DNA of 64,000 nt. It comes from Bacteroidota bacterium. Lineage in GTDB: Bacteria; Bacteroidota; Ignavibacteria; Kryptoniales; JAKASW01. Under the pieces are notes generated by a model. That model was not told the origin of the DNA, made no database searches, and worked only from the letters and a program-made list of their open reading frames with translations. This document shows positions 1 to 3,954 of the stretch, one piece after another (position 1 is the stretch's first letter; each line of letters opens with the position of its first letter). The DNA lies in the NCBI GenBank assembly GCA_021811615.1, contig JAJZNW010000046.1:1-64000 (forward strand), read 5' to 3'. A program made the translations under genes and the position numbers.

Positions 1-1199
1 TTCTTTATTCCGGTACCGGAATCGGTGAAACGTATGTTTATCTTACCGCTTACAAACTCCGTCGAAATGATCATCTTTCCTCCGTTAGGCATCGCGTCTT
101 TCGCGTTAATCAGTAGATTCAGGAAAGCCTGCTGCATGTAGTTCTTATTCGAGTCGAGTGGAGGGAGTTCTTCCGAAAAGCGCAGGTCAAATTCGATCCC
201 GCGGTTCTTGAACTGGTAGTCTACGAGAGCGATGATTTCATTTATGGCCCAGTTGATGTTTACCAGTTCGTGGTTCAGCTCATCGGGTACGCTTCTGGAG
301 AATGAGACGAGTTGTCGGGTGATCTGGGAGATTCTCTGCACCTGGTTCCTGATTATCTCGATCCTGTGTTCGACATCTTTTCCCTGCTGAAGGAGGGCGA
401 TATGGCCGAGAAGTATCTGCAGAGGGTTATTGATTTCGTGAGCTATGCCGCCTGCCAGTTCGCCGAGCGATGCAAGTTTGGCGGCCTGAAGCATCTGGGA
501 CTGCGATTTTTTCAGCTCTTCGGCGGCGTCCAGAAGTTTTCTTATGTTGTGGAGGTTCTCGATTGCGACGGCCGCCTGGTTCGAGAGAATTCCAAGCAGC
601 ATCAGCTCGTGGTCGGTGAAAGCCTTGCGAACGCTTCCGGTGCGTATGATGTATACTCCGATGGCTTCGTTGCGGAGAGTGAGCGGGACGACGACGAAAT
701 TTCTCTGCCCGGCCTCCGCCATCGAGGCATTCAGATCCGGGACCACCGTCGTCTTCTTCTGCTCTATGACCCAATCGAGAATGCCTTCTTCAAGCAGATG
801 CTGTGAAGCTTTGAGCATGTAATCCGAGCATGTGGAAAGAAATGGCTTAGTCTGGGACCTGGAAGCTCCCGTTTCAAATATCATGCTCTCTTCAACCGGG
901 ACCACTTGCCGTGTAAGTTCCAGGAGTGAATCGAAGACGGAAATCGGATCGGTGGCGGTGCTTATCGTATTTGCAAGTCTTTGCATCGCAAAGACCTCGT
1001 CCAGCGATTGTTTAATGTCTGTTTCGGTTTTCTCATGGAAGTCCAGCTTCATCTTGAGCAATTGGACGGTGCTTTCGAGCGCATGTATGTACGATTCGCG
1101 GGTTTCCATGAATCGTTCTATGGTTTCAGTCACGGCATGGGCCTGCGTTTTTGCGCTCTCCGTCTTTATATCGTTCTCTTCTATCTCTTCTTTTTTCAT
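1..1199 (-). CDS. GAF-domain sensor histidine kinase, C-terminus cut by window edge
   Basis: The minus-strand frame is open from the ATG at 1199 to base 1, giving about 399 visible residues without a stop. An N-terminal coiled-coil-rich stretch (about 1-70) precedes a GAF-like region (about 75-220). A HisKA domain follows with the phospho-acceptor His in HEINNP near residue 254. The N-box NLLINAKDAM begins the ATPase domain and the frame leaves the window within the G1 region. No membrane segment is seen, so the kinase is likely cytoplasmic. GGAG lies 7 bases before the ATG. It is the last visible gene of the flagellar cluster, 21 bases after an HDOD gene, so a role in flagellar gene control (FleS-like) is possible but inferred. 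The stimulus and the cognate regulator are unknown. Confidence 0.88.
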   Translation of the reverse strand, partial: MKKEEIEENDIKTESAKTQAHAVTETIERFMETRESYIHALESTVQLLKMKLDFHEKTETDIKQSLDEVFAMQRLANTISTATDPISVFDSLLELTRQVVPVEESMIFETGASRSQTKPFLSTCSDYMLKASQHLLEEGILDWVIEQKKTTVVPDLNASMAEAGQRNFVVVPLTLRNEAIGVYIIRTGSVRKAFTDHELMLLGILSNQAAVAIENLHNIRKLLDAAEELKKSQSQMLQAAKLASLGELAGGIAHEINNPLQILLGHIALLQQGKDVEHRIEIIRNQVQRISQITRQLVSFSRSVPDELNHELVNINWAINEIIALVDYQFKNRGIEFDLRFSEELPPLDSNKNYMQQAFLNLLINAKDAMPNGGKMIISTEFVSGKINIRFTDSGTGIK

Positions 1200-1220: not shown

Positions 1221-2081
1221 TCAGATGATATTCACGAAAGTCCGTTCAAGATCTTCGCGCAGTTTCGAACCGAAGGACTCGTAGAATGCCTCGGTTATTT
1301 CAGCTTCGGAAATATTGAGGATCTTCAACGATTCGGGATCGTATGTCTGTACCTTCTCGTACGAGAGCGCTCCGATGCCAAGCTTATGGCAGAGATAGTC
1401 GACAAAATGAATCAATGCAGTCAGTTGAGGATTCCTTTCGGCGAGTCCCGGCTTGTGATGGTATTTGATGGCTTCGATCAGTTGCTCCGGCAGGTTCCAT
1501 CGTTCGGCGAGCCACGCCCCCATTTCACCATGTGTGGCGAAGAGTACAGTCTCTTCCATATCCTGGAAGGAGGCCTTCCCGCCGGTGACGGCATCCACGA
1601 TCTGCTTGTAGTCATCGTGGAAATACTGATGCGTCACGAGGATGCCGATATCGTGGATGAGCCCTGCCACGAACGACTCTCCGCTAATCCTGTAGCCGAG
1701 TTGCCTGGCAAGAGTACGAGCGGCAATGCCTGTCGCGAGTGAATGCTCCCAGAATTCTTTCGAATTGAAATACTTGTCCTGCTTCTTTTTGAAGGCGCTT
1801 ATCAGCGAAATGCTGATGAGGATTTCCTTCAGTGAATCGAAGCCGAGCACCATGATGGCAAAATCGAGCGTCGATATTTTTCTTTGAAATCCGTAAAACG
1901 GCGAGTTCGCTATCTTCAGGACCTTGGCGGTCAGGACCTGGTCGGCAGAGATGACGCTTGTGAGCTTGGAGACACTCGTGTTCGGATTGTCGATGAGCGA
2001 AGCAACCTCGACCGCAATCGTAGGAAGTGCGGGAAGCTGTATGATATTCTGTACTTTTTCTTTTAGAATCTCATTTTCCAT
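1221..2081 (-). CDS. HDOD domain protein
   Basis: This 286-residue protein is covered almost entirely by an HDOD domain (about 10-210), with the family signature region around NSPFYGF and a retained His-Asp pair in LIHDIG. HDOD proteins are signalling or scaffold proteins related to HD phosphohydrolases, often found with chemotaxis and flagellar genes; most have no proven enzyme activity. It overlaps the 3' end of the upstream HDOD-sigma4 gene by 19 bases, which suggests translational coupling. The two proteins are clearly alike over the HDOD part, so this looks like a tandem duplication, but this copy has no C-terminal HTH domain. Its target is unknown. Confidence 0.9.
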   Translation of the reverse strand: MENEILKEKVQNIIQLPALPTIAVEVASLIDNPNTSVSKLTSVISADQVLTAKVLKIANSPFYGFQRKISTLDFAIMVLGFDSLKEILISISLISAFKKKQDKYFNSKEFWEHSLATGIAARTLARQLGYRISGESFVAGLIHDIGILVTHQYFHDDYKQIVDAVTGGKASFQDMEETVLFATHGEMGAWLAERWNLPEQLIEAIKYHHKPGLAERNPQLTALIHFVDYLCHKLGIGALSYEKVQTYDPESLKILNISEAEITEAFYESFGSKLREDLERTFVNII

Positions 2082-3229
2082 TGGTCCAACCTATTCGTTA
2101 GTATCGCGCGCTCAGCCATCTGCTGAAGTGCGGAAATTGCGTTTTTGTAATACTCCGCGACCTTTGCTTCCTCGTAGCCCAGCACGGTCGCAACCTGTCT
2201 AAGTTCAAGCCCCTCGTAAAGCTTGAGAGTCAAAACGAGCCTTTCAGTGGAAGGAAGCAGCTTGATCGCATCTTTGAAAAATCTCTTCAATGTGCCGTCA
2301 TCCACTTCGTCCTCAGGTTGATCGTCTGGCTCAGACGCGGGGATATCCGGTTCGGCTCCCGGGGCGTAATCCGTCACCGGAACGCGAATCGTGATGAGAC
2401 TCGTGTTATCGTCGCTGATGTATTTTGAGGCGAGAACTCTCATCGGAGGGGCAAGACGTTCTATCCCCAGATACTTTATCGCCATGGTGTCGAACCTCAC
2501 CGGTTGGTCCGCGCAGGAATAGCCTACCGACGAGGCAATGAGACTGGCCGCGTGGACGATCGAAGTAAGCTCAGGATTAACTTCAGAAAATGCCGGGGAG
2601 TGATGGAATTTGATTGCCTCGACAAGGTATAGTGGGAAGCCCCATTTTGAGGCGAGCCATGCGCCGATTTCACCGTGCGTCGTCCCCGTAACCACAACTT
2701 CTGCCTGGGAAAGTTGCACGTTATCCTCGTTCACAAGCCTTAATATCTCAGCGAAATCTTCCTGGAAATATCTGTAAAGCACGAGCGTTCCTACGTCGTG
2801 GAGCAGACCCGATGCGTACGCCTCCCCCGGTATCCTGTATTTTGCCTCTCGTGCGAGAGTCCTGGCAGCGGAGGCGGTATCGACGGCGTGCTTCCAGAAT
2901 TTACGCGGGTCAAAGTCCTTCGTCGGGCCCCCCTTGAATAAGTCGATGACCGTGAGAGAAAGGATCGTCTCCCTGAGAGTCTCGAACCCGAGAGCCACGA
3001 TTGCCCATTCGATCGTCGAAATCTTCCTGACAAAACCGTAATAGGGTGAGTTTGCGACGCGGAGTATCTTGGTCGCGAGCGACGGGTCTCTTGAAATTAT
3101 CCTCGCCAGCTCGGCCGCGCTGCTGTCGGAATCGCTTGCAAGCCGCATAACCTCCAACGCGGTCGTCGGAAATGTCGGCAAGTCCTTTATCGATGATAAC
3201 CTATCAGTCAATTGTCCAACCCCTATCAT
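2063..3229 (-). CDS. HDOD domain fused to a sigma-70 region-4-like HTH
   Basis: This 388-residue protein has two parts. Residues about 10-215 form an HDOD domain with the pair H144-D145 in LLHDVG. An acidic linker (about 291-313) leads to residues about 314-372, which resemble sigma-factor region 4: LPSTERLVLTLKLYEGL followed by LRQVATVLGYEEAKV aligns by eye with LADRERMVVTLYYYEEL and FKEIGKVLGISESRV of the FliA encoded just upstream. No region 2 is present, so it is not a complete sigma factor. Its start overlaps the fliA stop by 4 bases (ATGA). It could bind RNA polymerase, a -35 element or an anti-sigma factor. That role is inference; the domain similarity is what is seen. Confidence 0.82.
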   Translation of the reverse strand: MIGVGQLTDRLSSIKDLPTFPTTALEVMRLASDSDSSAAELARIISRDPSLATKILRVANSPYYGFVRKISTIEWAIVALGFETLRETILSLTVIDLFKGGPTKDFDPRKFWKHAVDTASAARTLAREAKYRIPGEAYASGLLHDVGTLVLYRYFQEDFAEILRLVNEDNVQLSQAEVVVTGTTHGEIGAWLASKWGFPLYLVEAIKFHHSPAFSEVNPELTSIVHAASLIASSVGYSCADQPVRFDTMAIKYLGIERLAPPMRVLASKYISDDNTSLITIRVPVTDYAPGAEPDIPASEPDDQPEDEVDDGTLKRFFKDAIKLLPSTERLVLTLKLYEGLELRQVATVLGYEEAKVAEYYKNAISALQQMAERAILTNRLDQWKMRF

Positions 3230-3954
3230 AGTTCAACAACCCTTCTAAACTGCTCTTTCAATTTCGATATCACTTCCGAGTGTATCTGGGACACGCGCGA
3301 TTCGCTGATGCCAAGGACTTTCCCAATCTCTTTGAAAGTGAGCTCCTCGTAATAGTAAAGAGTGACCACCATGCGTTCTCTATCGGCCAGCTGTTTCAGG
3401 ATCTTCACGAGTTGACCCTTCAATTCCTCATCCTCGAACTGCTCGATAACTTCGCTGTCGCTGCCGATCACATCTTCCAGAGTCATATCTTCGCCGATCG
3501 CCCTGGTGAGTGAGACGGCCTCTGCATTGGCCAGATAACCCTTGATCTGCTCAAACTCGCTTATGCTCATGTTTATGGCCCGGGCGTATTTCTCGCCGTT
3601 GACGCTGTCCATATCGAGCTCACTGAGCGATTTGGATGCTTTCTTGTATTTGTCGCGGACCGATCTCGGAAGCCAATCGACTTTCCTGATCTCGTCCAGC
3701 ATGACACCGCGAATTCTCTGGGACGCAAATGTTTCGAACTTGACTCCACGCTTCGGATCGAACCTCTCTATAGCCTCGACGAGCCCGATTATACCTATAC
3801 TCATCAGGTCGTCCGTATCGAAAACACATTTCGACGGAAGGTTAATTGCGCGGGCCGCATATTTGACGAGATTCATGTAAGAAAGCACGAGGTCTTTCTT
3901 CACTGCCGCCGTCTTGCGCCTGGAGTACTTCTCCCAGAGTTCTTGAGTTGTCAT
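3226..3954 (-). CDS. fliA: RNA polymerase sigma-28 factor for flagellar genes
   Basis: This 242-residue protein is the FliA/WhiG/SigD-type sigma factor that directs late flagellar and chemotaxis promoters. Region 2 is marked by DTDDLMSIGIIGLVEAIERF and the typical RIRGVMLDEIR stretch. Region 3 covers about 100-160. Region 4 ends the protein with LADRERMVVTLYYYEELTF and an HTH containing LGISESRVSQIHS. The length is normal for the family. The ATG overlaps the preceding small gene's stop (ATGA), and the next gene starts within its own stop, so it sits in a tightly coupled operon after flhF-flhG. The FlgM anti-sigma factor is not in this window. Confidence 0.97.
   Translation of the reverse strand: MTTQELWEKYSRRKTAAVKKDLVLSYMNLVKYAARAINLPSKCVFDTDDLMSIGIIGLVEAIERFDPKRGVKFETFASQRIRGVMLDEIRKVDWLPRSVRDKYKKASKSLSELDMDSVNGEKYARAINMSISEFEQIKGYLANAEAVSLTRAIGEDMTLEDVIGSDSEVIEQFEDEELKGQLVKILKQLADRERMVVTLYYYEELTFKEIGKVLGISESRVSQIHSEVISKLKEQFRRVVEL

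Follow-up and report, generated by a model that had tools for sequence, protein, structure and literature searches.

Flagellar genes are expressed on a schedule set by the sigma factor FliA and the anti-sigma factor FlgM, the known switch being the export of FlgM, and it is through region 4 that a sigma factor binds both the polymerase flap and the -35 element (both points as given in extracts of PMC3861889). The closest described systems to the one reported here place a sigma factor under the influence of a signaling protein. PhyR carries a signaling domain fused to a sigma-like domain and acts against an anti-sigma factor (extracts of PMC5830050 and PMC4814048). It serves as the anti-anti-sigma factor of the EcfG/NepR system of Alphaproteobacteria, with a receiver as its signaling domain and an ECF sigma factor as the beneficiary. 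In Streptomyces and its relatives, a sigma factor of the FliA family is itself subject to signal-controlled modulation through RsiG-(c-di-GMP)-WhiG and RmdB, the latter a signaling enzyme that antagonizes the anti-sigma factor (extracts of PMC13232838 and PMC8325347).

HDOD proteins have also been tied to flagella. SadB, GsmR, Cj0248, and PSPTO_4229 all belong to this group and have effects on flagella or motility (extracts of PMC6543031, PMC11813219, and PMC11004494). One section of PMC6543031 is titled ‘SadB binds c-di-GMP’, and the same source, in the portions available, presents HDOD as lacking the phosphodiesterase activity of HD-GYP and the mechanistic role of the domain as not established. 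Here we describe a gene adjoining fliA in which an HDOD domain is followed by a copy of sigma region 4, and consider what its product might do.

The fliA locus and its fusion gene

The window, by which we mean the whole stretch of 64,000 nucleotides analyzed, comes from an organism whose named relatives are entered as Bacteroidetes bacterium or Candidatus Kryptoniota. On its minus strand lie, in order, fliA, the HDOD-region-4 fusion gene, and a plain HDOD gene. The first of these (3226–3954, minus strand) encodes a flagellar sigma factor of 242 amino acids with regions 2 and 4, recognized by Pfam and NCBIfam profiles (Sigma70_r2, 2.1e-16; Sigma70_r4, 7.9e-20; FliA_WhiG, 1e-66, 224.9 bits against a cut-off of 189.6). 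The fusion gene (2063–3229, minus strand; 388 amino acids) was defined from its open reading frame, profiles, and BLASTP; across the same interval of the plus strand, stops interrupt the frame translated. The fliA stop and the fusion's ATG overlap in a 4-base ATGA (3226–3229), which makes co-translation of the fusion with fliA plausible. At its other end, the last codons of the fusion cover the start of the second HDOD gene (1221–2081, minus strand; 286 amino acids), an overlap of 19 bases (2063–2081). The product of this second gene, identified by Pfam (HDOD, 220 bits) and by the overlap, has no region 4 and is 41% identical to the HDOD domain of the fusion. The fusion is not an assembly artefact, since 10 genomes of the genus, including the window's own, contain it at full length. 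Past the second HDOD gene, a minus-strand frame running off the start of the window (1–1199) looks by eye like a GAF-type sensor histidine kinase.

Within the fusion, the HDOD domain spans residues 17–212 (2594–3181, minus strand; PF08668, E 1.7e-63, 214.1 bits against a gathering score of 22.9) and also passes the HD profiles PF01966 (27.9 bits against 22) and TIGR00277, HDIG (31 against 27.6). We read it against what we take to be the metal-ligand set of HD-type phosphohydrolases. The window's protein retains the HD-type ligand positions H114, H144-D145, H185, H209, and H210, while position 229 is Ser here and Asp in most relatives. The plain HDOD genes aligned have Asp or Glu at this position and the downstream HDOD genes Asp, so that it is at position 229 that the genus fusions fall short of the full set. 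With Ser or Asn there in nine of the 10 genus fusions, a non-catalytic HDOD domain is to be expected, perhaps one that binds a ligand.

A sigma region 4 at the C-terminus

Downstream of the HDOD domain, a hypervariable linker (residues 292–312; 2294–2356, minus strand), delimited by pN/pS and pairwise identity, leads into a sigma region-4-like domain (residues 313–371; 2117–2293, minus strand). The assignment of the latter draws on profiles, BLASTP, a structural model, and PDB matches. NCBIfam FliA_WhiG aligns to residues 300–371 with the end of the profile only (positions 151–222 of 224; E 6.5e-9), at 35.8 bits and thus below a cut-off of 189.6 that applies to the whole protein, and a general sigma70-ECF model scores nearly as high (35.5 bits, 7e-9). 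By BLASTP, the C-terminus of the fusion matches the neighboring FliA at 35% over 78 columns (E 5e-10). Pfam alone would leave the window's region 4 uncalled, as both region-4 models stay under their gathering scores (PF04545, 18.2 of 24.1 bits; PF08281, 19.7 of 25.7; E values of 6.7e-4 and 1.8e-3 between them); two further genus fusions scanned with Pfam likewise fell under the gathering scores for region 4. Each of the 12 proteins of families f4, f13, and f17 that were scanned passed the PF04545 cut-off (27.5–52.3 bits against 24.1). Region 2 was not among the families listed for the fusion (six of six by Pfam; 25 of 38 matches by NCBIfam), and the fusion is not expected to work alone as a sigma factor.

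Structural evidence agrees with the profiles. Searching the PDB with phmmer returned WhiG (1e-6), FliA (1.1e-5 and 9e-5), and the sigma-28 of 1rp3 (0.001). A model of residues 308–388, built from the window's sequence and four relatives, reached a pLDDT of 85.7, with helices at 4–16, 20–31, 36–43, and 47–80; a full-length model from five sequences (pLDDT 44) was set aside. The best Foldseek match of the region-4 model in the PDB was SigL (9.7e-4), the sole one of 884 matches at or below 0.001, and the best 50 of the 884 were nearly all sigma factors, among them complexes of sigma-28/FlgM and of WhiG, with KorA and SP_1288 as the exceptions.

The domain is under purifying selection, and within the genus the constraint on it matches that on region 4 of FliA itself. 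The 10 full-length genus members, compared in 45 pairs, gave pN/pS values of 0.125 for region 4, 0.178 for the HDOD domain, 0.361 for the segment that follows HDOD, and 0.725 for the linker, ratios that are rough because synonymous change is near saturation (pS ~0.75). The comparators, each taken over 36 equal-length pairs, gave 0.139 for region 4 of FliA and 0.090 for the second HDOD protein. The C-terminal tail (residues 372–388; 2066–2116, minus strand), delimited by pN/pS, is conserved to residue 382 (0.106 over residues 372–382); the low pS of 0.287 at residues 383–388 is expected from the overlap of reading frames there. The linker has a mean identity of 22% over the 45 pairs.

These results uphold the original prediction, made by eye, that an HDOD domain is joined to a region-4-like domain beside fliA, that its C-terminus resembles region 4 of that FliA, and that region 2 is absent; structure prediction and a Foldseek search, which had been proposed as a check, point the same way. 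The prediction had also described the linker as acidic. The linker stands, but its acidity does not carry across relatives: it is acidic in the window and basic in genome G006.

Distribution within the class

A search of a genome collection with one narrow pattern found four close relatives. The sample of the window's genus comprises 13 genomes, the window's own included, of which 11 have both FliA (76–100% identity) and the fusion gene; in one of them, G009, the contig ends before the fusion reaches region 4. The other two (G007 and G008), with neither a close FliA nor the fusion, are possibly non-flagellated or incomplete. In the sister family f2, fliA is followed by a plain HDOD gene in seven of seven genomes.

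Searching 391 genomes of the class and reading the loci brought further fusions to light in G031, G166, G143, G483, G509, G646, G517, and G661, with a tandem pair in G031 and another in G646. In G285 and G563, region 4 is joined to the N-terminal half of an HDOD domain. We count only these two as half-HDOD proteins; a length threshold alone also flagged G517, whose HDOD domain is nearly full by Pfam (12–189), and one of the G646 fusions. In G618 and G557, region 4 stands free as an open reading frame with a GTG start between fliA and HDOD (L127:2442–2744, minus strand, 100 amino acids, and L128:2371–2652, minus strand, 93 amino acids), scoring 31 and 42 bits, respectively, against PF04545 (cut-off 24.1). 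Both look to be coding: they differ from each other at codon positions 1, 2, and 3 in 18, 20, and 55 of 93 codons, with a pN/pS of 0.32.

FliA was found at E ≤ 1e-25 in 109 of the 391 genomes. Our census of 127 fliA loci takes in most of those 109 along with genomes of weaker FliA, mainly from families f10, f19, and f21; it was scanned with profiles built from the sequences of this analysis, and G627, G683, and G567 were left uncounted. By this locus scan, a region 4 outside FliA occurs in 22 of the 127 genomes, across families f1, f4, f13, and f17, a count that gives no unbiased frequency since loci were picked by FliA or HDOD matches. In all 22, the extra region 4 has fliA on one side and a plain HDOD gene on the other. 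A further 86, G009 among them, have fliA followed by one or two plain HDOD genes, and the stretch read has no HDOD in 19, some of these stretches being cut by contig ends (e.g., L166). An HDOD gene directly after fliA, present in 108 of 127, is the rule, and the added region 4, in 22 of 127, a recurrent variant. The pairing of HDOD with fliA is thus conserved beyond the fusions. At loci of f10 and f21 (e.g., L039, L077, and L078), fliA is followed by two tandem plain HDOD genes, and FliA in these three is short, at 206 amino acids.

In a sample of 395 genomes of the phylum, scored on at most four candidates per genome, coverage of the whole fusion was confined, among the matches listed, to this class; absence outside the class is a weak one, as the same scan matched the G143 and G166 fusions over HDOD alone.

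Residues kept and lost relative to FliA

Compared with FliA, the fusions have preferentially lost the recognition-helix signature. We set 43 FliA proteins against 11 fusion lineages over 15 scaffold columns and nine columns of the recognition helix, whose residues we take to be the DNA readers of the -35 element. FliA-conserved residues are kept at 68% in the scaffold and 27% in the recognition helix (column-permutation p 0.00048, a value resting on column groups that were drawn after the retention table had been seen). Divergence alone does not produce such a loss, since nine divergent FliA proteins, compared with the consensus of the other 34, keep 77% and 74%. Residues R220, Q223, and H225, invariant in FliA (43 of 43 for R220 and Q223), survive in one, three, and five of the 11 lineages, and S222 in none; the window fusion keeps none of R220, S222, and Q223, while the G285 fusion retains R220 and Q223.

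In the scaffold, L189, L199, E203, and I210 are kept in 10, 11, 10, and nine of the 11 lineages, L199 and E203 being invariant in FliA. Positions L199, E203, and L207 are FlgM-sensitive sites of enteric FliA. The partner-binding face of the fusion is altered too, as Y200 (invariant in FliA) and F207 are each kept in only four of 11. Taken together, 68% retention in the scaffold against 27% in the recognition helix makes a DNA-reading regulator improbable, and a sigma mimic that binds protein likely. The broader expectation of the original prediction, a new type of sigma modulator, stands insofar as region 4 is real, under selection, beside fliA wherever it was found, and recurrent, a search across genomes having found a region 4 outside FliA at 22 of 127 fliA loci in four families. 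One of its options, a -35-specific regulator, is disfavored by the same retention figures and by a recognition helix that in 18 of 22 fusions carries no net positive charge; the other two, a decoy for an anti-sigma factor and a competitor for the polymerase flap, both stay in contention.

FlgM and the proposed mechanism

We think it likely that the fusion is a region-4 mimic that does not read DNA and that modulates FliA through contact with a protein to which FliA itself binds. What points to a protein-binding mimic is the kept scaffold and lost DNA-reading signature, the free linker, the persistence of region 4 with half an HDOD domain or none, and the adjacency to fliA at each locus found; from these we infer that the fusion would act by protein contact and not by DNA reading. 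The partner may be FlgM. Fusion and FliA would be made from one operon, and a flexible linker would connect HDOD to a sigma-28 region 4 copy whose fold was kept while its -35-reading residues were lost. That copy would compete with region 4 of FliA for FlgM, releasing FliA, and the HDOD domain, or the neighboring HDOD protein, would expose or hide the region-4 surface depending on a signal, which could be a nucleotide. This more specific proposal, of an HDOD-gated decoy whose region 4 competes for FlgM, we regard as possible and just short of probable.

A target for such a decoy is probably available, since reading by eye found a FlgM-like open reading frame downstream of fliD in 11 of 11 fusion genomes (six of six in the genus and five of five others), which makes the decoy reading possible. 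FliD_C was sought in 13 fusion genomes, and G031 and G483, without a match, lie outside the 11 read. In the window's genome, the FlgM-like frame lies at L136:3477–3788 (minus strand), identified by its position after fliD, with counterparts in L137–L146; the FlgM-like frames of the fusion genomes align with FlgM of f2. Of nine FlgM-like proteins scanned with Pfam, FlgM was listed for seven, with E 1.2e-6 for that of f2, the only one to exceed the cut-off, and 7.1e-4 to 0.067 for the rest; it was not listed for the copies of the window's genome (L136) and G509. Frames that score below the cut-off may lead automatic annotation to report FlgM as absent from these genomes. Our initial Pfam scan found FlgM in six of seven f2 genomes and in none of 13 of the window's genus, and the idea that FlgM had been lost in the genus, or that it and the fusion exclude each other, was dropped once the frames after fliD were found. 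Co-occurrence provides no argument for linking the fusion to FlgM, as f2 has FlgM without the fusion.

The surfaces of region 4 that contact FlgM and the polymerase flap overlap, so that what the kept residues preserve may be no more than the fold or a flap contact. FlgM also grips regions of FliA outside region 4, and region 4 alone may for this reason bind it weakly. The mimic might instead dock on the beta-flap of RNA polymerase and block region 4 of FliA, or of another sigma factor, with signal-controlled negative feedback as the outcome. The kept scaffold residues would serve flap contact equally well, an inhibitor bound there needs no -35 reading, and the free-standing region-4 frames could act in just this way. 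We nevertheless consider flap competition, the chief rival of the decoy, unlikely, both because fliA adjoins in all 22 genomes found, which argues for a target specific to FliA and not the shared flap, and because, in known sigma factors, region 4 on its own has low affinity for the flap. We prefer the FlgM decoy for two reasons: confinement of the output to fliA operons suggests that its partner is specific to FliA, and PhyR offers the precedent of a sigma-like domain on a signaling protein that can work in this manner.

That HDOD gates the binding of the region-4 helix-turn-helix to operators, with a new DNA specificity, seems to us distinctly improbable. The fold is intact in the model and by Foldseek, the recognition helix is largely conserved within the window's genus, and the genus fusions are basic in the portion of region 4 that precedes it (+2 to +3, against a FliA mean of -0.23), a feature that fits loss of DNA contact less simply and that DNA contact would also explain. 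Yet FliA's DNA-facing signature is lost with no common replacement visible across lineages, and the net charge of the recognition helix, on average +1.47 in FliA, is at most 0 in all 10 genus fusions and positive in only four of 22 fusions. Less probable again is a split sigma factor, comparable to two-subunit factors such as SigO-RsoA, in which the fusion would lend an alternative region 4 to regions 2–3 of FliA: the gene adjoins fliA and co-translation is plausible, but FliA retains its own region 4 at all 10 full genus loci and the recognition helix of the fusion is without FliA's reading residues.

Origin of the fusion

The gene order, fliA then HDOD-region-4 then HDOD, suggests an origin by tandem duplication of the fliA 3′ end together with HDOD, followed by in-frame fusion. 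A tree of HDOD domains, for which five of the 10 genus fusions were used, the two half-HDOD proteins omitted, and long branches flagged, places 15 fusion rows on one side of a branch (support 92/86, not starred). This tree favors a single origin; a separate origin in the window's family, in which the window fusions cluster with the HDOD genes downstream of them, is not rejected (p-AU 0.268). In the tree of region 4, built from 62 columns and four of the 10 genus genomes, the best arrangement does not unite the region-4 copies in a single clade, and one that does so is not rejected either (p-AU 0.079). Outside the genus, the best NCBIfam sigma match is FliA- or WhiG-type in six of eight fusions and ECF-type or general in G143 and G661, so that descent of region 4 from FliA is likely, if unproven for all. 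It is hardly credible that the fusion is a functionless, decaying by-product of partial tandem duplication, even though the gene order is what such a duplication would leave and the region 4 of G285 is nearest to its own FliA (support 94/91, not starred), given strong purifying selection on region 4 in the genus and the persistence of a coding-like free-standing version in two genomes.

Comparison with known systems

The pairing of HDOD with sigma region 4 was not found in the literature searched, a body that leaves most subscription journals outside it. The C-terminal domain of the fusion is homologous to region 4 of FliA and WhiG sigma factors, from which the protein differs in having no detected region 2 and in the loss of the recognition-helix signature. 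For SadB, GsmR, Cj0248, and PSPTO_4229, the available extracts describe no sigma region, SadB having a YbaK-like domain (PMC6543031, PMC11813219, and PMC11004494). HDOD thus affects motility without an established mechanism in these sources, and the fusion displays a likely output domain that is open to experiment.

Among modulators of FliA-family sigma factors, RsiG is a coiled coil, and RmdB is built from GGDEF and EAL parts and binds the sigma factor itself; a copy of region 4 is described for neither in the extracts of PMC13232838 and PMC8325347. A region-4 mimic on a signaling domain would add to FlgM export a second way, this one cytoplasmic, of freeing or blocking FliA. More tentatively, the variants may form a class of signal-gated FliA mimics encoded beside fliA, in which HDOD plus region 4, doubled in some genomes or whittled down to a microprotein in others, would titrate FlgM. 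The series of full fusion, half fusion, and free region 4 provides natural constructs with which such ideas can be tested.

Where PhyR has a receiver, the fusion has HDOD; it carries region 4 only and at its C-terminus, and concerns FliA and not an ECF factor; neither a receiver domain nor PF22233 (PhyR_sigma-like) was listed by Pfam for the window fusion, and where PF22233 is listed in relatives it is below cut-off (G285, 22.1 bits against 27). Should the proposal hold, the fusion would be to FliA what PhyR is to an ECF factor, and one HDOD domain would gain a defined output.
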